From: Burkholderia sp. Nafp2/4-1b
Lineage (GTDB): Bacteria > Pseudomonadota > Gammaproteobacteria > Burkholderiales > Burkholderiaceae
Assembly: GCF_003635165.1 (NCBI RefSeq)
Contig: NZ_ML058601.1
Span: forward strand, 248,001 to 312,000
Reading direction: 5' to 3'
DNA: 64,000 nt
Part shown: positions 25,224 to 40,947 of the stretch, piece after piece
Numbering within the stretch: the first letter of the stretch is position 1
Layout: every line of letters begins with the position of its first letter
Notes under the pieces: generated by a model
Told to the model about the DNA's origin: nothing
What the model saw: the letters and a program-made list of their open reading frames with translations, nothing else
Databases searched by the model: none
Program-made: the position numbers and the translations under genes

Positions 25224-27041
25224 TCACTCGACCGTCACCGATTTCGCCAGGTTCCTCGGCTTGTCGATATCCGCGCCGCGCAGGCACGCCGCGTGATACG
25301 CAAGCAACTGCAGCGGCACGACGTGCAGGATCGGCGACAGCAGCCCGTAGTAATCCGGCATCCGCAGCACCGACACGCCCTCGCCGTTGTCGATCTGCGT
25401 GTCCGCATCGGCGAACACGTAAAGCTGTCCGCCGCGCGCCCGCACTTCCTGCATGTTCGACTTGAGCTTCTCGAGCAGCGCGTCGTTCGGCGCGATCGTC
25501 GCGACCGGCATCGCGTGCGTCACGAGCGCGAGCGGCCCGTGCTTCAGCTCGCCTGCCGGATACGCTTCCGCGTGGATATACGAAATCTCCTTCAGCTTCA
25601 GCGCGCCTTCGAGCGCGATCGGGTAATGCAGCCCGCGCCCGAGGAACAGCGCGTTCTCGTGCCGCGAGAATTCCGCTGCCCAGCGCTCGATCTGCGGCTC
25701 CAGCGCGAGCACGTCCTCGAGCGCGCGCGGCAGTCGTCGCAGCTGCGTCGTATAGCGGGAGAGCTGCGCGTCGTCGACGTAACCGCGCAACCGGCCGAGC
25801 GTCACCGCGAGAATGAACAGCGCGACGAGTTGCGTGGTGAATGCCTTGGTCGACGCGACGCCGATTTCCGGGCCGGCGCGCGTGAGGAACCGCATGCCGG
25901 TCTGGCGCATCATCGCGCTGGTCGGCACGTTGCAGATCGCGAGCGTGTCCATATGACCAAGCGCCTGTGCGTACTTGAGCGCGGCGAGCGTGTCGGCGGT
26001 CTCGCCCGATTGCGACACGCTGACCACCAGCGTGTTCGGCAGCGCGAGCGCATCGCTGTAGCGGTATTCGCTCGCGATCTCGACCTGCGCGGGCAGCCGC
26101 GCGATGGTCTCGAGCCAGCGGCGGGCGGTCAGGCCTGAATAGTGACTCGTGCCGCACGCGAGAATCAGCACGTTGTCGATCTGCTGGAACGCGCGCGGCG
26201 CATCCGGGCCGAACGCCGCGGGATCGAACAGCCCCGCATCGGGAATGGTCGCGGCGACAGCCTCCGGCTGCTCGAAGATTTCCTTCTGCATGAAATGGCG
26301 GTACGGCCCCAGCTCGACCACGCCCTGCGTCGACGTGACCGTCTGGATCGGGCGATCGACCGGCGTGCCGCCGCGCGCGAGCACCCGCACGCCGCCCGGC
26401 GTCAGTTCGACGATGTCGCCTTCCTCGAGAAAGATGAAGCGATCGGTGATGCCGGCCAGCGCAAGCGCGTCGGAGGCGAGAAAGAACTCGTCGTCCGTCA
26501 GGCCGACCACCAGCGGCGAGCCGGCACGCGCGCCGATCAGCCGGTGCGGCTCGTGCTTGCTGAATGCCGCGATCGCATACGCACCGTGCAGCTGCGACGT
26601 CGCATCGCGCACGGCGGTGAGCAGGTCGCCGCGATACTTGCTGTGGATCAGGTGCGCGACGACCTCGGTATCGGTCTGGCCGTCGAACTCGTAATGCTCG
26701 TTCGATAGTTGCCTACGCAACGACTCGTGATTCTCGATGATGCCGTTGTGCACGAGCGCGATCTCGTCGCGTGAAAAGATCGGGTGCGCGTTGCAGGTCG
26801 CGGGTGCGCCGTGCGTCGCCCAGCGCGTATGCGCGATGCCGGTGCTGCCGGACAGCCCTGCACTGCGCACGTGCGCGTCGAGATCGGCGACGCGCGACAC
26901 GCTGCGCTCGCGGCGCGCCTGGCCGTCGACGACGGTCGCCACGCCGCATGAATCGTAGCCGCGATATTCGAGGCGGCGCAAACCTTCAATCAGAATCGGA
27001 ACGATGTTCCGTTGCGCGACCGCGCCGACGATGCCACACAT
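25224..27041 (-). CDS. glmS: Glutamine-fructose-6-phosphate aminotransferase (isomerizing)
   Basis: A 605-residue enzyme of normal length making glucosamine-6-phosphate. Cys2 of [10 protein letters not shown] is the glutaminase nucleophile, the glutaminase domain spans roughly residues 1-220, and two SIS domains follow ([17 protein letters not shown]). The C-terminus [13 protein letters not shown] is canonical. It is separated from wecB by a 1.3-kb gap but could supply amino-sugar precursor for the polysaccharide genes. Whether it is the only copy in the genome cannot be told. Confidence 0.93.
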
Positions 27042-28008: not shown

Positions 28009-28024
28009 TGGTTTGAATATTGCT
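28009..28024 (+). promoter_or_regulatory. Candidate sigma54 promoter for wecB
   Basis: TGGTTTG-AATA-TTGCT matches 8 of 11 fixed positions of TGGCACG-N4-TTGCW, with both GG and GC dinucleotides at correct spacing. Predicted transcript start is near 28036, leaving a leader of about 290 nt before wecB. Confidence 0.45.
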
Positions 28025-28328
28025 CTATCGAGAGCAGGAACAACTGCGAGGTGCGTCGCGATGCGGCAACGTACGCGTTCAACCGCCAGACGTAGCGACC
28101 GACATCGATAGGAACGCTCATGACGTCGTGACGAGGTTCAAGGTGACGACGGTAGTCCGACGATTGCGTGGCGAAGACCACGCGGACAACGACGCGCGCT
28201 CGCCCTGCATCGCCACTGCATGTCGCTCGGCAGGCGTGACCGCATGTGGCAACGGGACGAGTGATGCATACAGGCTTGGCGCCAGGTGCCGGATCTTCCG
28301 GCGCAAAGAAGTTCAACGAGGAACAACG

Positions 28329-29546
28329 ATGAAAAAGATCTTGCTTGTGTTCGGGACTCGGCCGGAAGCCATCAAGATGGCCCCGCTCGTCCGCGCGCTG
28401 AAGGCGCGCAAGGATGTCGATGCCCGCGTATGCGTGACTGCCCAGCATCGGGAAATGCTGGATCAGGTCCTCACGTTGTTCGACATCAAGCCCGAGTACG
28501 ACCTCAATCTGATGCGCCAGAGCCAGACGCTGACCGACGTGACGACCGGCATTCTCCAGGCGATCGGAATCGTCTTCGACGACTTCCATCCGGACGTCGT
28601 CCTGGTGCACGGCGATACGACGACGACACTCGCCGTGAGTCTCGCCGCGTTCTATCGTTATCTGCCCGTCGGGCACGTGGAAGCGGGTTTGCGCAGCGGC
28701 GACATCTGGTCGCCGTGGCCGGAGGAATTGAACCGCCGCGTGACCGACGCGGTGTCGTCATGGCATTTCGCGCCGACCGGCCAGGCGCGCGACAACCTGT
28801 TCAGCGAAGGCGTGCCGGTCGGCGCGGTCGTGATGACCGGCAACACCGTGATCGATGCGCTGCACGATGTCAAACGTATGCTCGATCACAATACCGCGCT
28901 CAACGACAAGGTCGCCGCGCACTTTCCGTTTCTCGAACCGTCGCGCCGCATCGTGCTGATCACCGGTCACCGCCGCGAGAGTTTCGGCGAGCCGTTCCGG
29001 CATTTCTGCGAGGCGCTCTGCACGCTCGCGAAACGCTATCCCGATGCGCAGTTCGTCTATCCGTTGCACATGAATCCGAACGTGCGCGAACCGGCGCGCG
29101 CGCTGCTCGGCAGCGTACCGAACATTTACCTGATCGAGCCCCAGGAATATCTTTCGTTCGTATTCCTGATGTCACGCGCGCACTTCATCATCACCGACTC
29201 GGGCGGCATCCAGGAGGAAGGACCGGCGCTCGGCAAGCCGGTGCTTGTCACGCGCGAGACGACCGAACGCCCCGAAGCGATCGAGGCCGGTACCGCGCGG
29301 CTCGTCGGCACGGACCACGAGCGGATCGTCTGGGAAGCGTCGCGGCTGTTCGACAGCGACAGCGCGTATGAGGAAATGGCGCACGCGAGCAATCCGTATG
29401 GCGACGGCCACGCGAGCGAGCGGATCGTTCACACACTGATGCATACGCCTGGTGCGAGCGCGAATGCGGCGAGCTTTTCGATGGGCGCCGCGGAGATGCC
29501 GTTCAACCCGCTCGCACTGGGGTTGCAGGCGTTGCGCTCGCGCTGA
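28329..29546 (+). CDS. wecB: UDP-N-acetylglucosamine 2-epimerase (non-hydrolysing)
   Basis: A 405-residue epimerase making UDP-ManNAc from UDP-GlcNAc. Family motifs are [36 protein letters not shown] and [21 protein letters not shown] precedes the ATG at 28329. The C-terminal 25 or so residues (after ERIVHTLMH) extend beyond the usual E. coli length of 376. In E. coli WecB is needed for the NfrA/NfrB-dependent N4-receptor glycan; the nfrAB-like genes 10 kb away suggest the same job here. Confidence 0.93.
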
Positions 29547-30573: not shown

Positions 30574-32436
30574 TTATTCATCGACCTTGAACGCCGATAC
30601 CAGTCGCGTCAGTTCCGTCGCCTGCTGCTTCAGGCTTTCCGCGGCCGCCGCGCTTTCCTCGACCAGCGCCGCGTTCTGCTGCGTCATCTGGTCGAGCGAC
30701 TGCACCGCGTCGCCGATCTGGTCAATGCCCGCGCTCTGCTCCAGGCTCGCCTCGGCGATCTCGCTCATCATCGCGCTGACGCCCCGCACCTGCGACACGA
30801 CATCGCGCATCACCGTCCCCGCCTCGCTGACGAGCCGCGACCCGGTGTCGACCGTCCCCGCACTGTGCTCGATGAGCGCCTTGATCTCCTTCGCCGCCTG
30901 CGCGCTGCGCTGCGCGAGATTCCGCACTTCCGACGCAACGACCGCGAACCCGCGTCCCTGCTCGCCGGCGCGTGCCGCCTCGACTGCCGCATTCAGGGCG
31001 AGAATGTTGGTCTGGAACGAGATGCTGTCGATCATCACGATGATCTCGGAGATCCGTTGCGACGCGTCGCTGATCTGCTCCATCGTGGTCACGACTTCGC
31101 CCACCACCTGGCCGCCGCGCGTCGCGGTATCCGCTGCGCCGGTAATCAGCTTCGCGGCCGTCGTCGCGGTTTCGGTGTTGTTGCGCACGACCGCCGTGAT
31201 TTCCTCCATCGACGACGCCGTGCGCTCGAGGTTGCTCGATTGCCCTTCGGTCCGCTCGCTCAAGTCCGCATTGCCCGACGCGATCTGCGCGGAGCCGGTC
31301 GCGATCGACGCGGATGCCGCGCGAATCCGGTGCACGAGCGTCGACAGCGACGACACGAAGCGGTTGAACGCGTCAGACAATTGGCCGATCTCGTCCTGGC
31401 TCTCGACGGTCATTCGGCGCGTCAGGTCGCCCTGGCCGCTCGCGATCTCCGACAGCAGCATCGCCGCGCGGCGGATCGGCGCGGCGATCGCGCGCCCGAC
31501 CAGCCAGATCACGACCAGCGCGACGCCGAGGCCGACGACCGCGGCGACCAGCGCCGCGCTGCGAATTGCGCGCGTGACCGGGCCGAGCAGCTCGGCCTGC
31601 GGCACTTCAACGACCACGTACGCGTTCAGTTCCGGGATGAACGACGTCGCGATGAAACGCGCGCCGCCGTCGCCCGTGTAGCTCAGGTACGCATACGGCT
31701 TGCCGGCCAGCAGCGTCGACGATGCGTCGCCCGGCAGGCCCGGCGCGTCCTTCAGGAAATGCTTGCCGTCGATCAGCGACGTATCGCGATGCATCATGAT
31801 CGCGCCGTCCGGCCGCACGAGGTACGCGAAGCCGGTGTCGCCGATCCGGTACGCGGCAATCCCCTTCGCGAGCGCATCGACGGACAGGCTCATGCCCGCC
31901 GCGCCGACCGGCGCGCCGTCGAGTTCCACGCGGCTGTTGATGAACATCATGTAGCCGCCGAGCGTGACCTCGCGATCCATGTTCACGTCGTAGGTGTTGC
32001 CCGACGCGAGGAAGCTCGTCAGCCACTGGTCCTTGTCGGTGACCTTGCGCTGCAGGCCGCCTTCGTTGTAGTAGTTGCCGCTCTTCACCGACACCCACTG
32101 CACGGACGCGGCCTTCTGCTCGTCCTTCACGTTCTTCGCGAGCTGGATCCAGTTGCGCGTGCCGGCGTCGGGCTCGCCGGCGGCTTCCCATTGCAGCAGG
32201 AACGCATCGCGCGCGAGGATGCGCGACGCGGCGATCGGCCCGGCCATCTGCCGCTGCACGTCGGCGCGGATGCCGCTCACGGCCGTCGGAAGTTCTTCGC
32301 GAACGACGCGATCGCGCACGGCGTCGCCGATCAGACGAATGCTCAACCCGCTCGAAATCGCGACGAACACGAGCAGGCAGCTCGTCATGCTGAGAATCAG
32401 CTTGTTCTGAATGGACAGCTTGCGCCAGAAATGCAT
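30574..32436 (-). CDS. Methyl-accepting chemotaxis protein with periplasmic Cache-type sensor
   Basis: A 620-residue chemoreceptor. Membrane segments lie at about residues 11-31 and 280-305, enclosing a periplasmic Cache-type domain with [22 protein letters not shown] follows ([27 protein letters not shown]), then a long signalling coiled coil with hairpin tip near residues 469-525 ([23 protein letters not shown]). There is no C-terminal CheR-binding pentapeptide. It follows the MotB-like gene by 149 bp on the same strand, so it may belong to the motor module or have its own promoter. No CheA or CheW gene is nearby. Confidence 0.92.
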
Positions 32437-32585
32437 GGGGAACCCTCGATAACCGCTCGGTCTGAGCCAGCTTGAGTTATCGGCAGGCACGCGCGGAATC
32501 GCATCGCCGGGTTCACATGGTCGTCATGCGAGATCCGATATGTCGGTGACGGGCGGCCGTCGCGCGCCCGTCGCGGTTCGCACGC

Positions 32586-33266
32586 TCAATACGCGACGAA
32601 GATCGTCACGCGCCGGTTGCGCGCCCGCGCGGACGCATCGTCGCCCGCGACGAGCGGTTGCGTATCGGCGCGGCCGATCGCGGCGAGCCGGTGCGGCGCG
32701 ACGCCGCGCTCGGTCAGGTAGCGCACGACGCTGCCCGCGCGCGCGGACGACAGCTCCCAGTTCGATTCGTATTTCGCGTTCGCGATCGGCACGCTGTCGG
32801 TATGCCCTTCGACGAGGATGTCGCCGGTCGCATGCTCGCTCAGCGCCTGCGCGATCTGGCTCAGCACGGGCGCCGCATCGGGCAGCAGCCGCGCATCGCC
32901 GACGTTGAACAGGATCTTCGCGTCGATGCCGATCTCGATCCCGTGCGGCGCGCGCACGAGCGAAATGCGGCCGTTCGCCTTGAGCGCATCGAGCGATGCG
33001 AGCCACGCCGGCGCGCGCTCGGGGGTCGCGGGTGCCGTTGCGCTGGCCGCGCCGCCGTCGTGCCGCGCAAGCGTCTGGTACCGCGCATCGAGTGCGTTGT
33101 ATTTCGCTAGCTGCAGCACGTACAGCGCGAGAAACAGCACCATCAGCGTCGTGATGAGATCCGCGTACGAGATCAGCCAGCGGCCCGATTGCGTGCCCTC
33201 GGCTTCATCGTCGTCGCGGTCGCCGGCAGCCGAGCCCGCGCGTGCCGCATCAGTTCGAGCCGTCAT
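32586..33266 (-). CDS. MotB-like OmpA-domain protein
   Basis: A 226-residue protein. The single membrane helix contains the MotB signature SYADLITTLMVLFLALYVL, with the proton-carrying aspartate. A short linker leads to an OmpA peptidoglycan-binding domain with VEGHTDSVPI, NWELSSARAGSVVRYL and ARNRRVTI. This is the anchor half of a stator unit. It is shorter than flagellar MotB (about 300) because the linker and plug region are reduced. It is 18 bp after the MotA-like gene. Confidence 0.88.
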   Translation of the reverse strand: MTARTDAARAGSAAGDRDDDEAEGTQSGRWLISYADLITTLMVLFLALYVLQLAKYNALDARYQTLARHDGGAASATAPATPERAPAWLASLDALKANGRISLVRAPHGIEIGIDAKILFNVGDARLLPDAAPVLSQIAQALSEHATGDILVEGHTDSVPIANAKYESNWELSSARAGSVVRYLTERGVAPHRLAAIGRADTQPLVAGDDASARARNRRVTIFVAY

Positions 33267-33284
33267 GTCGAAGCCCCCGGTGCG

Positions 33285-34049
33285 TCATGCGAGCGACTCG
33301 GCCGCGCGGCCGCGCACGTCGCCCGTCAGCCGCGTTTCGATCGTATGCGGCGATTCCTTGCGCGAGATCGCGAGCAGGCCGTCGAGATACAGCTTGCGAA
33401 AGCGCAGTTCGCTGTCGACCTGCGCACGCAGCTTGCCGTAGAGCGGCAGAAACACGAGGTTCGCGAACGCGAGGCCGTACAGCGTCGCGATGAACGCGAC
33501 CGCGATGCCCGGCCCGAGCTGCGCCGGTTCGAGGATATGGCTCGTCACCTGCACGAGCCCGAGCACCGAGCCGAGAATGCCGAACGTCGGCGCGTAGCCG
33601 CCGGCCTGCTGCCACACGCGCGCGGCCGCGAGCCGGCTGCGCTCGTAGGCGTCGAGCTCGCGATGCAGCGCGTCCTCGAGCACGGCGGTCGACACGCCGT
33701 TCGCGAGCAATTCGAGCCCGCGCCGCGCGAACGGATGAATGCCGGTCACGTCCATCGATTCGAAGGCGAGCAACCCGTCGAGCTTCGCGCGATCGCCCCA
33801 CTCCAGCAGGTCGGTCAGGTGCTTGCGATCGACTTCCTGCGCGCGCACGAACGCGAGCCGCAACTGCTTCACCGCGTCGAAGAAGCGCGCCCACGTGTTC
33901 TGGATCATCACCGCGCCGAGCGTGCCGCCGAGCACGATCACGAGCGCCTCGAACTGGAACAGCATCGAGAAATGTCCGCCTTCCAGCGCGAAGCCGAACA
34001 CGATGGCCGCGCCGCCGAGCAGCACGCCGGCCAGGGTCAACAGGTCCAT
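33285..34049 (-). CDS. MotA-like stator/proton-channel protein
   Basis: A 254-residue MotA/PomA-type protein with four predicted membrane helices: LTLAGVLLGGAAIVFGFAL, then FEALVIVLGGTLGAVMI, the long cytoplasmic loop, and the last pair GGYAPTFGILGSVLGLVQV and GIAVAFIATLYGLAFANLVFLPLYG. The conserved proline in APTFGILG is present. The C-terminal tail (LLAISRKESPHTIETRL) resembles MotA. With the downstream MotB-like protein it should form an ion-driven stator. No flagellar gene is near. Confidence 0.9.
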   Translation of the reverse strand: MDLLTLAGVLLGGAAIVFGFALEGGHFSMLFQFEALVIVLGGTLGAVMIQNTWARFFDAVKQLRLAFVRAQEVDRKHLTDLLEWGDRAKLDGLLAFESMDVTGIHPFARRGLELLANGVSTAVLEDALHRELDAYERSRLAAARVWQQAGGYAPTFGILGSVLGLVQVTSHILEPAQLGPGIAVAFIATLYGLAFANLVFLPLYGKLRAQVDSELRFRKLYLDGLLAISRKESPHTIETRLTGDVRGRAAESLA

Positions 34050-34072
34050 ATGCGTCTCCTTCGGGTCGTACG

Positions 34073-35311
34073 TTACGCGTCAGAGGAAGCCAGCGGCGCG
34101 GCCGCGGCCGGTGCCTTGGCCGCGCGCACGGCATCCAGCACACGTCGCTCGATCTCTTCGACCTCGATCGGATCGAGCTTCAACTCACGGCGCATCACCC
34201 ACGACACTTCGTTGCGCCGCGCTTCCGTCATCACGGAGAACAGCTTGTCGGCCACCGCGCGATCGTCGAGGCTCGCGATCAGCTTCGCGAGATCGTACGT
34301 ATCGAATGCGCTGATCACGTCGAACAGCGTGCGCTGGTCGACCCCCACGATATCCTCGAGCGCGTGCACGTCGCCGCCGGCGCGCGGGGCGCGCCGCGAG
34401 AAATACGCGACGCCCTTCTGCTCGACGTAACCGAGCACTTTCGACTTGCGGAACGCGAACACCTCGTCCGCGATCTCGCCGTGCGACAGCTTGTTGAGCA
34501 GCAGCTTCCGGTCGACGCCGATCAGCGCTTCGAGATCGGCCAGCTCGATCAGCTCGAGCTCGCTGTTGATCGACAGATCGAGGTCGTGATCGGCGACCTG
34601 CTGCGCGCGATCGATCACGCGCGCGGCGTCGAACGTGACGACCTGGCGCGCATCCGACGATGCCGCGTAATCGGCCGCGCCGCCGGCATGGTCGGCCTGC
34701 GCGGCTTCGATCGTGACGAGATTGAGTTTTTCCATGCGGCGCAGCATCGCCAGCACGTGCGGCCGCGAATGGCCGGCGATCGCGCGGCAGCGGCGGATCA
34801 CGTCCGCGAGCGGCACCGATGCCTCCGCCGCGTGCGCCTGCATCGGCCGCCGCGACCATGCATCGTCCGAGCCGCGCGTATCGGCGCCCGCCATCAGCGA
34901 CAGCACATGCGCATACGACAGCACGCCCGGCATGAAGTCCGCATGCGTATAGGTCGCGAGCTGGTCGTCCTTGCGCTTCACGCGGCGAACCATCGTGCGC
35001 ACGATGTGGCGAAGCAGCGCGGACACATGTTCGATTTCCTCGTCGAGCATCGCCGCCGGCACGACCGTGAGCTGGCAGAAAGACAGCGCCTTCGCGGTAT
35101 GCGCGCGCGGCTCGGCCGCGAGCAGCGCCGATTCGCCGAAGAACTCGCCGCGCCCGAGCGTCGCAACGACGACGCGCTTGTCCTCGCAGCGCGTCGACAG
35201 CTCGACCTTGCCTTCGGCGATCAGGAAGATGACGGGCTCGCCGGCGAAGCCCTCCGAGTAGACGATCTCTCCGGGCGCGGCCGTACGCGTCCACGATTGC
35301 TGACGATTCAA
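34073..35311 (-). CDS. Cyclic-nucleotide-binding domain fused to a FliG-like C-terminal region
   Basis: A 412-residue protein. Residues about 10-105 are a cyclic-nucleotide-binding domain with a phosphate-binding cassette (GEFFGESALLAAEPRAHTA, keeping glutamate and arginine). Residues about 165-205 look like a Crp-type helix-turn-helix (AIAGHSRPHVLAMLRRMEKLNLV). Residues 317-399 resemble the FliG torque domain: ALEDIVGVDQRTLFDVISAF, DLAKLIASLDDRAVADKLF, then MTEARRNEVSWVMRRE. An earlier block DLEALIGVDRKLLLNKLS looks like a related repeat. TTG at 35311 with AGGGGA upstream is preferred over ATG 35356. It is first in an operon with MotA/MotB-like genes. The FliG relation is by eye, not computed. 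Confidence 0.75.
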   Translation of the reverse strand: MNRQQSWTRTAAPGEIVYSEGFAGEPVIFLIAEGKVELSTRCEDKRVVVATLGRGEFFGESALLAAEPRAHTAKALSFCQLTVVPAAMLDEEIEHVSALLRHIVRTMVRRVKRKDDQLATYTHADFMPGVLSYAHVLSLMAGADTRGSDDAWSRRPMQAHAAEASVPLADVIRRCRAIAGHSRPHVLAMLRRMEKLNLVTIEAAQADHAGGAADYAASSDARQVVTFDAARVIDRAQQVADHDLDLSINSELELIELADLEALIGVDRKLLLNKLSHGEIADEVFAFRKSKVLGYVEQKGVAYFSRRAPRAGGDVHALEDIVGVDQRTLFDVISAFDTYDLAKLIASLDDRAVADKLFSVMTEARRNEVSWVMRRELKLDPIEVEEIERRVLDAVRAAKAPAAAAPLASSDA

Positions 35312-35594
35312 GTTGGTTCCCCTGCTGCGCTGGTTGTTGCGGACTGCGCGTCGCATGTCGCATGCATGCGATCGGCAGCCATCCCCGTGCCCGTTTTAAC
35401 GTCACCGGCAACGGCATCCTTTAGCGAAATCCTGCTCGTAACTGAGGAAAATCAACGTGAAACGTTTGCGGGTTGCCGCATCGTCAGCAGATTGTTCAAC
35501 GCGTGTGCATCCGTGCGTGCGCCCCCGCCCGCAAGCGGCGCACGACACGGCCATCGCGAACGATGCGGCCTTGATCGTGAGCACGGCAGTGTCG

Positions 35595-35716
35595 GCGAAG
35601 CCGAAGCCGAAGCCGAAGGCAAAGTCGAAGTCGTCGAAGCCAAAGCCGAAGTCGAAGTCGGAGTCGAAGTCGGAGTCGAAGTCGAAGTCGAAGTCGAAGC
35701 CAAAGTCAAAGCCGAA
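35595..35716. repeat. Degenerate hexanucleotide tandem repeat (GAAGTC/GAAGCC type)
   Basis: About twenty imperfect 6-bp units of the form AAGTCG or AAGCCG. Plus-strand frames read Lys-Pro/Lys-Ser or Glu-Val/Glu-Ala dipeptides; the minus strand reads Ser-Thr/Pro-Thr. A length change would keep frame. A surface or linker protein is possible but not shown. Confidence 0.75.
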
Positions 35717-36965: not shown

Positions 36966-38660
36966 TCAGAACCACAATGTCGCGCGCACCACGAGACCAC
37001 GTGCGCGGGCCGCTGACGTCAACCCGAACCGGTATTGCACCGTCACGTCGAGATAGCTTGCCGGCGCGGTATACCTGCCTTCACGAAACCAGTACCTGAA
37101 CTGGACCCCCGGCCCCGCGCCGATTGCCGTCTTGTCCGGCTGACGGTTGTCATGATCGCCGGCCACCGCGGCGTGCGGATACACGGTCAGCCGATCGCTG
37201 ATCATCGGCAAACGCCACGTGTGCCCGTAACGCAACTCCGAATAGATGATGTATCGGCCTGCCCGGATGAAATACGCCCCTTCGACATACGCCTGCCAGC
37301 TCCGCCAGCTCGGTTCGGTGACCCGCAGGTCGGTGCCCGCTTCCGACGAATAGCCCAGGCGCATCAGCCAGTCCGTCGTCGACAGGCTACCGATGTGGAA
37401 CAGCCGCTCGGCGGTCATCACCACGTTCTGGTCGGGTATCGGCTTGTAACGTACACCCACCGAACCTTGTACGGTCGGCATGCCGGTCACGTTGCCCGTG
37501 CCGTCGTAGGCCGTGCCGTATCCGCGCACGAAGAACTGGAGGATCCGGCCGTTCCGATAGCCGATCTTCGGGGGCTGCCAGTACGCCTCGACACCCGGCT
37601 GGAGCACGCTGATGGTGCCTTGCGGGCCGAATGCGGCCGACTGGTACGGCGCGCTCAGCACGAACCCCCAGGTACGCTCCAGTTGTTCGACTTCCCGCCG
37701 ATAGCCGAACTTGCGCTGCGCGTCGAACGCGTGTTCGTCTTCGTCCGCGTCGAGACTGTGCTCGAACATCTGGACGGACTGCTCGTTCAGTCCGATCCGC
37801 TTGGCGGCGTAGCCCGCGTCCGCGTAGTTCATCGCGTTGCCGGCGCCGCCTGCAAAACCGTCCCGGAATGCGTCGAGCGCCTCGCGATCCTTGTGTTCGC
37901 GCAGGAGGTCGTAGGCCTGCTGCAACTTCTGTTGCGCGGTATCGTCCACCGGCGCCTGGGGCGGCACATCGGCTTGCCGCGCCTGCGCCAGGATCGACGC
38001 GGCCATGTTCCGCTCGGCATCGGTCGACGCGTCGCCGGCCGCAAGCTCGGCCACGCGGATGGCGCTGTCGCGGTCGCCCGCCTGCAAGCTCATCTGCGCG
38101 ATACGCAACTGGATCACGGCCGATTTTTCATCGGCCAGCGGCGCAAGTGCGACGCCAGCCTCGTGCGGACGATTCGCCGCGAGCGCACTGTCCGACCACG
38201 CGAGGCGCAAGTTGCGCTGCTGCTCCTTGCTCCAGTTTCCAGTCGCGACGGCCGCCGAGAAATTGCTGCACGCGACGTCGTAGTGCATCTGCCGCTGCGC
38301 CAGATAGCCATGCTGCGCCAGTACCGGCGCGCTTTTCGGAAAACGAACGCTCAGCGACTCCAGCAGCGCGTCCGCTTCGTCGACTTTCCCTTCGCGCCGG
38401 TACACATCGACGAGCAACAGCCCGAGTTGTTCGCTTCCCGGCTGAATCTTGAGGGCGCGCAACGTATACGCTTCCGCGCGGGGCAGGTCGCCTGCGTTGA
38501 TCGCCTTGTAGGCGCCATCGGCGAGCCGGTAAGCCTTGGGGTTGAGCTGTTGGGCGGCGGAGGCCGGAGCCTGCCAGGCGAGCGACATGGCGATCGCCAG
38601 GGCGCTCAACCGTGCGCAGCGCTTGAAGCCGACAGCAATCGGACGTGTTGAGCACTTCAT
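36966..38660 (-). CDS. nfrA: NfrA-like outer-membrane TPR/beta-barrel protein
   Basis: A 564-residue exported protein. The signal peptide ends at PASAA-Q (residues 30-36). Residues about 40-330 are TPR-like helical repeats (LPRAEAYTLRALKIQPGSEQLG, then RPHEAGVALAPLADEKSAV). The C-terminal 230 residues are strand-rich, ending in VVRATLWF, and fit the NfrA C-terminal (phage N4 adsorption protein A) domain. E. coli NfrA is longer (about 990). It overlaps the nfrB stop by 4 bp (ATGA), so the pair is coupled. Predicted to carry the glycan across the outer membrane. Confidence 0.82.
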   Translation of the reverse strand: MKCSTRPIAVGFKRCARLSALAIAMSLAWQAPASAAQQLNPKAYRLADGAYKAINAGDLPRAEAYTLRALKIQPGSEQLGLLLVDVYRREGKVDEADALLESLSVRFPKSAPVLAQHGYLAQRQMHYDVACSNFSAAVATGNWSKEQQRNLRLAWSDSALAANRPHEAGVALAPLADEKSAVIQLRIAQMSLQAGDRDSAIRVAELAAGDASTDAERNMAASILAQARQADVPPQAPVDDTAQQKLQQAYDLLREHKDREALDAFRDGFAGGAGNAMNYADAGYAAKRIGLNEQSVQMFEHSLDADEDEHAFDAQRKFGYRREVEQLERTWGFVLSAPYQSAAFGPQGTISVLQPGVEAYWQPPKIGYRNGRILQFFVRGYGTAYDGTGNVTGMPTVQGSVGVRYKPIPDQNVVMTAERLFHIGSLSTTDWLMRLGYSSEAGTDLRVTEPSWRSWQAYVEGAYFIRAGRYIIYSELRYGHTWRLPMISDRLTVYPHAAVAGDHDNRQPDKTAIGAGPGVQFRYWFREGRYTAPASYLDVTVQYRFGLTSAARARGLVVRATLWF

Positions 38661-40615
38661 GCCTGTTCTCCGGACGGCTTTTTCACCGCAAATGCCTGCA
38701 GCTTCGCATCGTCGCCGTCGCGCAGCCGCGCGATTTCGACGAAACGGGAGTGCCGGGCGAGTTCGGCGGTGATCTCTGCATCGCAGGCAATGAAATAGGC
38801 CACGTTCGATCTGGCGCCGCGCCGCACGACGTCCTGTTCGTCCTGCGTGAGCGGTCGCCCGACCGCGACGTTCAGCGTCCCGTCGTCCGCGGTCGAAAAC
38901 GGCACGGCGCGATACGCGTACTGCAGCTCGAATGCCAGCGAGTCCGCGAAGTGGCCCACCGCGACGTTGCCCAGGCTCACCCGCGGCAGCTCCGCCTGCT
39001 CGGCGATCGCGTCGGCCAGCGATTCGGTCGACAGCGCGCCGCCTTCGAGCAACAGCTCGCCCAGCCGCTTGCCGCATGTCAGTTGTTTCTCGAGGCTGAC
39101 CTGCAATTGCGCCAGTGAGACCACACCCCAGCCGACCAGGATCTCGCCGATCTTGAGGCGCACTTTCCCGAGCTGTTCGTTCGACAGGTAGGTGTGACTG
39201 GTCTTGTCCCACGCGATGGGCTTGCCGCTCGCCAGGTGGCCGACATAGATGCGCCACGCGCGACTCACCGCGCAGAAATTGATCAGGTTGTTGACGAACA
39301 TCCTCGGGATCGAAAGCAGCCCCTGGAGCGGACCGTTCAGCCTGCTGACAAAGTGGACGCGCTGTGCGACGCGGGCGAACAGCATGACGGTGTTCACCCA
39401 CATCAGCGGCGCGACCCATGCACTGGCCGCGACGAGGCGAGTGTCGACCGGGATGACGTGCCCGACTCGCTGAAGGGCGGCCAGCGACACGAAGTTGAGC
39501 AGCACGCCATAGGCAATCACCGAAAACAGCGACGTCACGATGCCCTTGCGATCGCGGAAGAACATATAGCGGGTGCGGAGGTCGCCCTTCCAGCCGAGTT
39601 GCTCCCACCCTTGAAACGCGATGCCGAGAATCCAGCGCGCGCGCTGCCGGTACGCAGTGCGGAATGTCTTCGGAAAATACTCGCGCGTGGCCAGCAGGTT
39701 TCGATTGGCGGCTCTCTCCTTTGCGCGCGGGCCGCCGGTGTCGTGCGCGACGTCCGAAAGCGGAAAGCGGGCGAAGGTTTCCCTCATGCCGAGGTCTCTC
39801 AAGCGGAAGCTGAAGTCATAGTCCTCGGTCAACGAACTCGTGTTGAACGGGCACCCGTCGCGCTCCTTCATCGCCGCTTCGATCGAACGCCGGCTGTAGC
39901 ACGATGCAACCCCTGCGCCCGGGACGACACCGGTCAGACGAGCTCGCGCCGGCACGTCCTTCTGGTGCGTTTCGCTGAAATCGTCGAGATAGCAGCCGGC
40001 GACGAACTCGTTCCATTTCCGCGGCAACGACAGGACGGGCAACTGGACCAGGTCGCTCTCCGCCACCGCATGGTTGAGGTACTTGAGTTCAATCGGATGA
40101 ATGACATCTTCGCAGTCGTGCATGACCACGCCCGCGAATTGAATATGATGGACGCCTTCGTAGCGCAGGATGGCTTCGAGAATCCAGTTCAGGCAGTCTG
40201 CCTTGCAGGTCGGCCCGTCGTTCATGACCGTGGCACGCGTCACCCTGCCCGGATACCGGCGGACCATCCGTTCGACTTCCGCCGTGGTTTCGGCGTCGTT
40301 GTGATAGGTGCCGACGAAGATGACATACCGCTCGTACTCGATGGTCGCCAAGGTGTTTTCAATCATCTTGGCGATCACGTCATACTCTTTCCAGGCTGGC
40401 ACCATGAGCGCCAGGTGGCGCTCTTCCTGCGCGCGCAGCATGGCGATATCGATGGTCTGCGATTTCTCGCGACGCCAAATTCGCCCGATTTCGAATGACC
40501 AGTAAAAGGCATCCAGCGTAAGGTCATCCAGTGTGCTGATGAAGATAACGATGGCGGTAACAATGGCGACAATGTTGAGCGCATATAAATACGCACTCCA
40601 TATCATATTATCCAT
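38657..40615 (-). CDS. nfrB: NfrB-like glycosyltransferase with C-terminal MshEN-type domain
   Basis: A 652-residue inner-membrane GT2 synthase. An N-terminal helix (residues 6-28) precedes the GT domain: metal-binding DCED (167-170), the TED block at 263-265 and QRARW (324-328), matching processive synthases. Three or so membrane helices follow (about 361-385, 393-418, 430-450). Residues 484-640 carry paired MshEN-like motifs (KIGEILVGWGVVSLAQL; KRLGELLLEGGALSTESLADAI), the c-di-GMP-binding type in MshE and E. coli NfrB. ATG 40615 is chosen because it starts just before the first helix; the frame is open upstream. Slightly shorter than E. coli NfrB (745). Confidence 0.85.
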   Translation of the reverse strand: MDNMIWSAYLYALNIVAIVTAIVIFISTLDDLTLDAFYWSFEIGRIWRREKSQTIDIAMLRAQEERHLALMVPAWKEYDVIAKMIENTLATIEYERYVIFVGTYHNDAETTAEVERMVRRYPGRVTRATVMNDGPTCKADCLNWILEAILRYEGVHHIQFAGVVMHDCEDVIHPIELKYLNHAVAESDLVQLPVLSLPRKWNEFVAGCYLDDFSETHQKDVPARARLTGVVPGAGVASCYSRRSIEAAMKERDGCPFNTSSLTEDYDFSFRLRDLGMRETFARFPLSDVAHDTGGPRAKERAANRNLLATREYFPKTFRTAYRQRARWILGIAFQGWEQLGWKGDLRTRYMFFRDRKGIVTSLFSVIAYGVLLNFVSLAALQRVGHVIPVDTRLVAASAWVAPLMWVNTVMLFARVAQRVHFVSRLNGPLQGLLSIPRMFVNNLINFCAVSRAWRIYVGHLASGKPIAWDKTSHTYLSNEQLGKVRLKIGEILVGWGVVSLAQLQVSLEKQLTCGKRLGELLLEGGALSTESLADAIAEQAELPRVSLGNVAVGHFADSLAFELQYAYRAVPFSTADDGTLNVAVGRPLTQDEQDVVRRGARSNVAYFIACDAEITAELARHSRFVEIARLRDGDDAKLQAFAVKKPSGEQA

Positions 40616-40947
40616 ATTTTTTCGCGCTCTCTTGTTGCCTGAATCTCTTCCGCTCGAACCAACGCGAGACGAAACGCTCCCCGTCCCCGTCGCCCCCGTC
40701 ACGCCCACTCTTTGGCTAGCGCCACACCAATACCCGTCGCGCTCAAAAGACTCGATCACGCGTCGAGCGCTATTGATACGACCACGTAGCATCACCAAAA
40801 ATGCAACGTGTTCAGTGGATGACTTTCGACAGCTGCTTCCCCGCCTGCTTGCCTCCGTCCGTGCATTCGCCAAGTGCTTTCAGCCGTTTCCGATCCAACG
40901 CCTCGCGGTGCGCCCCGTGCACCGTCTTCTCGACGCAAAACTCTTCT

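Follow-up and report, generated by a model that had tools for sequence, protein, structure and literature searches.

A conserved Burkholderia operon pairs a MotA/MotB-like stator with a cyclic-nucleotide-binding protein that carries a FliG torque domain

In Burkholderia sp. Nafp2/4-1b, a three-gene operon encodes a MotC-type stator A subunit and a MotB-like B subunit behind a protein in which a cyclic-nucleotide-binding (CNB) domain and a Crp-like winged helix are fused to the C-terminal (torque) domain of FliG. The window analysed, to which positions refer unless a locus is named, is a stretch of 64,000 nucleotides (G000:C5:248001-312000) within this 7.79 Mb genome, designated G000. Computation identified the domains of the fusion, its FliG_C fold and the type of the stator, and revealed a conserved operon, strict co-occurrence of the fusion with one particular stator and a tie of the cassette to genomes that have FliG. 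The reading we favour, to which we give about an even chance, is that the cassette is a second MotC/MotD-type stator for the ordinary flagellum together with its own Crp-like regulator, whose copy of the FliG torque domain would couple stator engagement, nucleotide and transcription.

RESULTS

The three genes form one conserved unit

The three open reading frames (ORFs) lie head to tail on the minus strand, with intergenic gaps of 23 and 18 bp. Gene 1 (34073..35356) encodes the fusion, of 427 residues from the ATG at 35356; a TTG at 35311, the start chosen in an earlier prediction from this DNA (the original prediction), would give 412 residues, and this later start is plausible because the invariant columns of the gene 1 alignment begin at residue 17. 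Gene 2 (33285..34049, 254 residues) is MotA-like and of MotC type by Pfam, PDB and NCBI family matches, and gene 3 (32586..33266, 226 residues) is MotB-like and nearest to MotD, with D36 and an OmpA-type domain. Among the genomes scanned, the closest named relatives are strains of Burkholderia, in which gene 1 is up to 95% identical.

A scan of genome contigs gave 73 loci, 70 of which were kept (L033-L102), leaving out two cut by contig ends (L103 and L104) and one with a CNB match only (L105). Gene 1, MotA and MotB stand in the same order and on the same strand in 70/70 loci. The tight head-to-tail arrangement with gaps of 18-23 bp read in the original prediction was borne out by ORFs and Pfam, and the neighbourhood search that it had proposed recovered the same three genes throughout. 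The gene 1 alignment (A2) has 58 members; 13 further loci were excluded since an in-frame stop followed the beginning of their tblastn match, which probably lay ahead of the real gene start. Both cNMP_binding and FliG_C were matched by Pfam (E<=1) in 58/58 members. Because every member has both domains and every locus the same order, neither the domain fusion nor the gene set is due to chance.

Gene 1 joins a nucleotide domain, a winged helix and a FliG_C fold

The CNB domain of gene 1 (residues 24-108, 35033..35287; Pfam cNMP_binding, 1.1e-16, and alignment) keeps F73 G74 E75, P83 R84 and T87 A88 invariant in 58/58 members. It therefore carries the phosphate-binding signature of CNB domains (FGE and PR..TA), as Crp/Fnr-type proteins do, and we take this signature to be of the cAMP type. 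A Crp-like linker helix and winged helix follow at residues 137-265 (34562..34948), the middle region folding as a Crp-like winged helix (fold rows 3dv8 and 4ev0_D); 'winged helix' is the firmer term and 'Crp type' the weaker one, other winged helices scoring alike in the fold search. The C-terminal region (residues 331-417, 34106..34366) has the fold of FliG_C according to structure model and fold search, at 14-21% identity to FliG in the 14 top fold rows, and Pfam agrees (FliG_C 1.3e-5; 25.9 bits, cut-off 23.3). The CNB-helix-turn-helix-FliG-like fusion described in the original prediction is upheld by Pfam domains and fold, the helix-turn-helix being backed by the fold, and the structural check which it had proposed for the C-terminal region returned FliG_C.

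The top Foldseek row for gene 1 is Bd2879 (9sfa_A, E 1.3e-3), a cyclic-nucleotide transcription factor with a CNB domain and two winged helices (9SFA) that is described in PMC12750041. A family absent from the fold-search rows is not thereby excluded, and the single-sequence fold of gene 1 was poor, with a predicted local distance difference test score (pLDDT) of 40.4. The NCBI models of Crp type that gene 1 matches give it scores that fall far short of their cut-offs (CRP, 28.1 vs 266 bits). No FliG_N or FliG_M was found in gene 1 or among the Pfam families of the 58 A2 members, and no Pfam match to PilZ in the trio proteins or A2 members.

The A2 profile did not match a canonical FliG profile, perhaps as both are shallow (effective number of sequences 1.6 and 1.7), and PDB profile searches with alignments A1 (window plus 24 chosen loci) and A5 (like A4, window plus 25) had no FliG among their matches; the canonical FliG_C profile gave merely 0.4-7.0 bits on 26 fusion C-termini. 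Whether the charges of the Escherichia coli FliG torque helix (R281, D288/D289) are kept or lost in gene 1 depends on the alignment used: the weak profile alignment places R281 and D289 at R380 and E/D391, both kept in 58/58 members, and the structural ranges, which are nearly free of gaps, place them at A379 and V387 if we take them literally. A reversed-charge pairing of FliG mimic and MotA was considered and dropped, MotA retaining K89/E97 and the FliG side being alignment-dependent.

Between winged helix and FliG_C, residues 267-318 (about 34403-34558) form a strand-helix-helix-strand-helix stretch which resembles, by eye, a second helix-turn-helix of the excisionase type, in a part where the structure model is poor. 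Upstream of gene 1 there are inverted repeats and a simple-sequence stretch of repeated GACTTC-like units (about 35590-35710). No promoter-like sites were found, and terminator-like sites were no commoner than in shuffled sequence. A Crp-type operator, searched with a Crp consensus in 17 upstream stretches, was absent from 15, with one weak match each in L056 and L084.

Genes 2 and 3 encode a stator of flagellar type

Judged by sequence, genes 2 and 3 encode a flagellar-type stator. Gene 2 matches MotA_ExbB (2e-24) and MotA_N (1.6e-9) in Pfam, and gene 3 matches OmpA (3.6e-20) and MotB_plug (4.4e-10). Gene 2 exceeds the NCBI equivalog cut-off of the 'flagellar motor protein' NF006583/PRK09109 (249.6 bits vs 237), which we take to be the MotC known from Pseudomonas; the best family of gene 3 is MotD (NF006541/PRK09038), yet below its cut-off (170.8 vs 283 bits). 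The nearest PDB entry of gene 2 is a MotA (9lu9_A, 3e-51), and PomA also matches (6.4e-38). Unchanged in 71/71 sequences are D36 of gene 3, presumably the aspartate of the ion path, and P154 and P202 of the A subunit, presumably the transmembrane prolines; the OmpA-type domain presumably binds peptidoglycan.

Of 30 gene 2 loci taken from a search of 274 genomes at class level, one is the window's own and the other 29 share 39-46% identity with it, 28/29 having a MotB-like neighbour. In E. coli, R90 and E98 of MotA contact FliG, as stated in the available text of PMC12505986. The corresponding positions of the trio MotA, K89 and E97, are unchanged in 71/71; in the 29 relatives from the class search, these positions are R and E without exception. 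In the frame of that source text, the trio stator resembles the PomA-like flagellar ion transporters. With respect to Zorya systems, neither gene 2 nor gene 1 had a PADLOC match (E<=0.001), and no A subunit of ZorA type was found; gene 3 does match ZorB models in PADLOC (best 2.5e-22).

Nearly all carriers of the trio have FliG

The absence of flagellar genes noted in the original prediction holds for the nearby DNA scanned and not for the genome, where an ordinary fliG lies on contig C20 and a separate motAB pair on contig C12. In the family sample, 56/57 trio genomes have a FliG_C match of canonical strength, G645 having none, and canonical-strength FliG was also present in 43/43 carrier genomes checked separately from this row-by-row comparison. 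Because FliG is also found in 135/192 remaining sampled family genomes, its presence in carriers is weak evidence when taken alone. The genome of G645 (5.2 Mb) lacks rod-domain matches, of which three comparison genomes have 5-6, and retains one flagellin. Its trio (L174 9300-12200) is damaged, with genes 1 and 3 split between frames and gene 2 open (253 residues, one residue missing); gene 1 is open in L084, a relative of G645 with 96% identity in this gene.

Behind the trio of Burkholderia sp. lig30, and on its strand, lie genes for a full-length FliG with FliG_N, FliG_M and FliG_C by Pfam (L102 13521-14549, plus strand; 68% identical to the FliG of the window genome) and for a methyl-accepting chemotaxis protein (MCP). 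This is the sole locus of the 70 with a FliG match nearby, and no flagellar gene besides FliG was found among the 10 ORFs scanned of 37 picked around the lig30 trio. The 'non-flagellar' part of the original prediction is not supported, in view of the flagellar-type score of gene 2, the FliG of the carriers, the damage in the FliG-less carrier and the FliG beside the trio in lig30; its nucleotide-gated part keeps the conserved cyclic-nucleotide signature and the CNB-winged helix-FliG_C order.

Gene 1 is co-inherited with one stator in variable neighbourhoods

Gene 1 was found at strong E-values in 29/37 genomes of the genus sample and, at E<=1e-10, in 58/249 genomes of the family sample, own genome counted. 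A laboratory strain among the carriers is Paraburkholderia xenovorans LB400 (L092). A close trio MotA (66-100% identity) was present in 57/249 family genomes, the same 57 that carry gene 1, and two other MotA matches (G555 and G635; 38 and 33% identity) came without it. The 58th genome, G472 from another genus, has a divergent homolog of 384 residues (about 30% identity; L175 9428-10582, minus strand) which is encoded next to a VpsR-domain sigma-54 regulator. Neither a MotA-like nor a MotB-like match was found in its 20 kb, and the homolog, which Pfam FliG_C does not recognise, is possibly an older form of the fusion. An order-wide search with the gene 1 C-terminal alignment matched 2/399 genomes.

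The trio also occurs on replicons filed as plasmids. Most of gene 1 was covered in 8/9 matching records of a plasmid collection, and all three genes were found by tblastn in a record of Caballeronia sp. SBC2 in this collection. For an 853 kb plasmid from Paraburkholderia sp. PGU19, the annotation reads MCP, CNB protein, flagellar motor protein and OmpA protein, that is MCP, gene 1, MotA and MotB (L179 6910-11842). As this plasmid is typed mobilizable, the module may be able to move between strains.

In the window, a chemoreceptor gene (30574..32490, minus strand; HAMP and MCPsignal, with a Cache match below cut-off) lies just downstream of the trio. An MCP gene with the orientation of the trio lies no more than 6 kb downstream in 29/70 loci and is not invariant: it is present in 22/26 loci of a Burkholderia group (L033-L055, L071, L078 and L098) and in 7/44 elsewhere, including lig30. 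Given the 15-22 MCPs counted in each of ten Burkholderia genomes (6.5-8.6 Mb), one would expect about 0.05 in a stretch of 21 kb. The adjacency reflects few independent events because the Burkholderia group has one common ortholog. Clustering of neighbouring ORFs gave no other family in all loci, the largest beyond the trio reaching 22 and 21 of 70.

The window further holds an NfrA/NfrB-type pair (36966-40873, minus strand), made up of an NfrA_C protein and a glycosyltransferase that matches MshEN weakly. On the opposite flank of the trio there are a UDP-GlcNAc 2-epimerase ORF (28020-29546, plus strand) and a gene for a GlmS-like enzyme (25224-27041, minus strand); together these genes are perhaps a surface glycan locus. 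A role of the trio in polysaccharide export was rejected, as NfrA/NfrB were found in the flanks of just 3/70 loci (L034, L036 and L045), some flanks being incomplete.

DISCUSSION

A second stator with a soluble partner is preferred because no simpler reading finds a use for all parts of the cassette. Several points weigh against it. None of the four flagellar proteins searched for (FliG, a FliF end, FliH and FlhC) had a match in 69/70 loci, a count which also discards the idea that relatives carry the trio merely as a set beside a flagellar locus. The flagellar genes seen in G000 sit on contigs other than the trio's, and >1 Mb separates the trio from FliG on the contig that carries both in G469 and in G581. 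The damaged trio of a FliG-less carrier is a single case, G645. Moreover, three motA/motB pairs and no MotCD homolog are reported for B. terrae in the available text of PMC5462819, which contradicts the MotC/MotD typing if the third pair is the trio stator.

The absence of flagellar neighbours would also suit the module of the original prediction, a nucleotide-gated, flagellum-independent rotary machine whose stator turns gene 1 or an attached partner, as would the variable flanks, the plasmid-borne copies and the location of the operon's sole obvious rotor domain in gene 1. We consider such a machine unlikely: its A subunit would be of flagellar type, carriers possess FliG, the trio has decayed where FliG and rod matches are missing, a FliG paralog adjoins it in lig30, and gene 1 is without the Pfam FliG_N or FliG_M needed to build a ring. 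Doubtful, too, is an ordinary Crp-family factor controlling the stator operon among other genes, with the FliG-like domain as an oligomerisation or contact module which never meets the stator. The Crp-like winged helix, the Bd2879 match and the G472 homolog, standing beside a sigma-54 regulator and away from stator genes, point in this direction, whereas the strict pairing of gene 1 with one particular stator and an extra domain that is specifically the FliG torque domain argue against it, and Pfam FliG_C misses the G472 homolog itself. Finally, gene 1 might be built into the C-ring, where it would be an alternative rotor subunit suited to the second stator, as its FliG_C fold and the second full-length FliG accompanying the lig30 trio would allow; this is very improbable, for lig30 already has a full-length FliG for the rotor role, and gene 1, lacking Pfam matches to FliG_N and FliG_M, has no known means of reaching FliF or FliM.

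If the cassette is a second stator with its own regulator, its stator would serve the cell's ordinary flagellum and would probably be proton-driven. A FliG_C domain that is free would be expected to bind MotA rings that are idle, and that of gene 1 would most likely dock, as a decoy rotor, on the cytoplasmic face of the partner MotA ring, where FliG itself docks (8UCS). Binding of a cyclic nucleotide, probably cAMP, to the N-terminal domain would change which partner the protein holds, and the winged helix would provide the transcriptional output. Control might run in either direction: the gene 1 protein may act on the stator as a clutch, in the manner of YcgR with cyclic di-GMP (c-di-GMP), or the stator may keep the protein off DNA as long as no loaded motor recruits stators. 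A stator-tethered transcription factor, which its FliG mimic would keep on idle stators and which would be freed when load draws stators into the motor, is a tentative and rather unlikely version. If true, mechanical load and cyclic-nucleotide level would change transcription directly, through a surface sensor made of one protein.

Among known systems, the MotC/MotD stator is closest, with an A subunit over the PRK09109 cut-off, the key stator residues, the two-gene order and, in the same genome, a separate motAB. It differs in that the trio lies away from the flagellar cluster, is preceded by a regulator-like gene and has a short B subunit that falls under the MotD cut-off. With FliG, gene 1 shares the FliG_C fold and Pfam family, but this domain stands behind CNB domain and winged helix, without the FliG_N and FliG_M parts. 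Crp/Fnr factors, including Bd2879, share the CNB domain, linker helix and winged helix; gene 1 differs from them by the additional FliG_C and its low scores with Crp-type models.

The clutches and brakes YcgR, FlgZ, MotI (reportedly one of them) and EpsE would work like gene 1, as soluble proteins acting at stator or rotor. YcgR and FlgZ, however, are c-di-GMP proteins that contain a PilZ domain, whereas gene 1 combines a Crp-type CNB domain with a FliG copy and has no PilZ match. Such systems are parallels and not evidence for the trio; a nucleotide-responsive comparison is FlgZ-MotCD, in the available text of PMC6855561. No passage on a MotC-SadC contact was located in the available text of PMC12288467. 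The main text of PMC3584217 on Bcam1349 (BerA), a c-di-GMP-responsive Crp/Fnr protein of Burkholderia, is without FliG or MotA, and its identity with gene 1 was not tested.

Neither a CNB-FliG fusion nor the trio operon is described in the open-access titles and abstracts among the matches listed, subscription papers lying mostly outside. What appears to be new here is a regulator accompanying a MotC/MotD-type second stator, of which we found no description in the open-access literature. By what route load on the flagellum and contact with a surface become signals is an open question, and gene 1 unites a cyclic-nucleotide domain, a winged helix and a motor torque domain in a protein co-inherited with one particular stator. 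Because these parts are joined in one gene that is inherited with its stator, the link between them is open to a simple experimental test. The protein would exemplify a rotor domain reused outside the rotor, the tethered regulator, if true, would be a new kind of sensor, and the cassette could link motor state to signalling in some Burkholderia-type bacteria.
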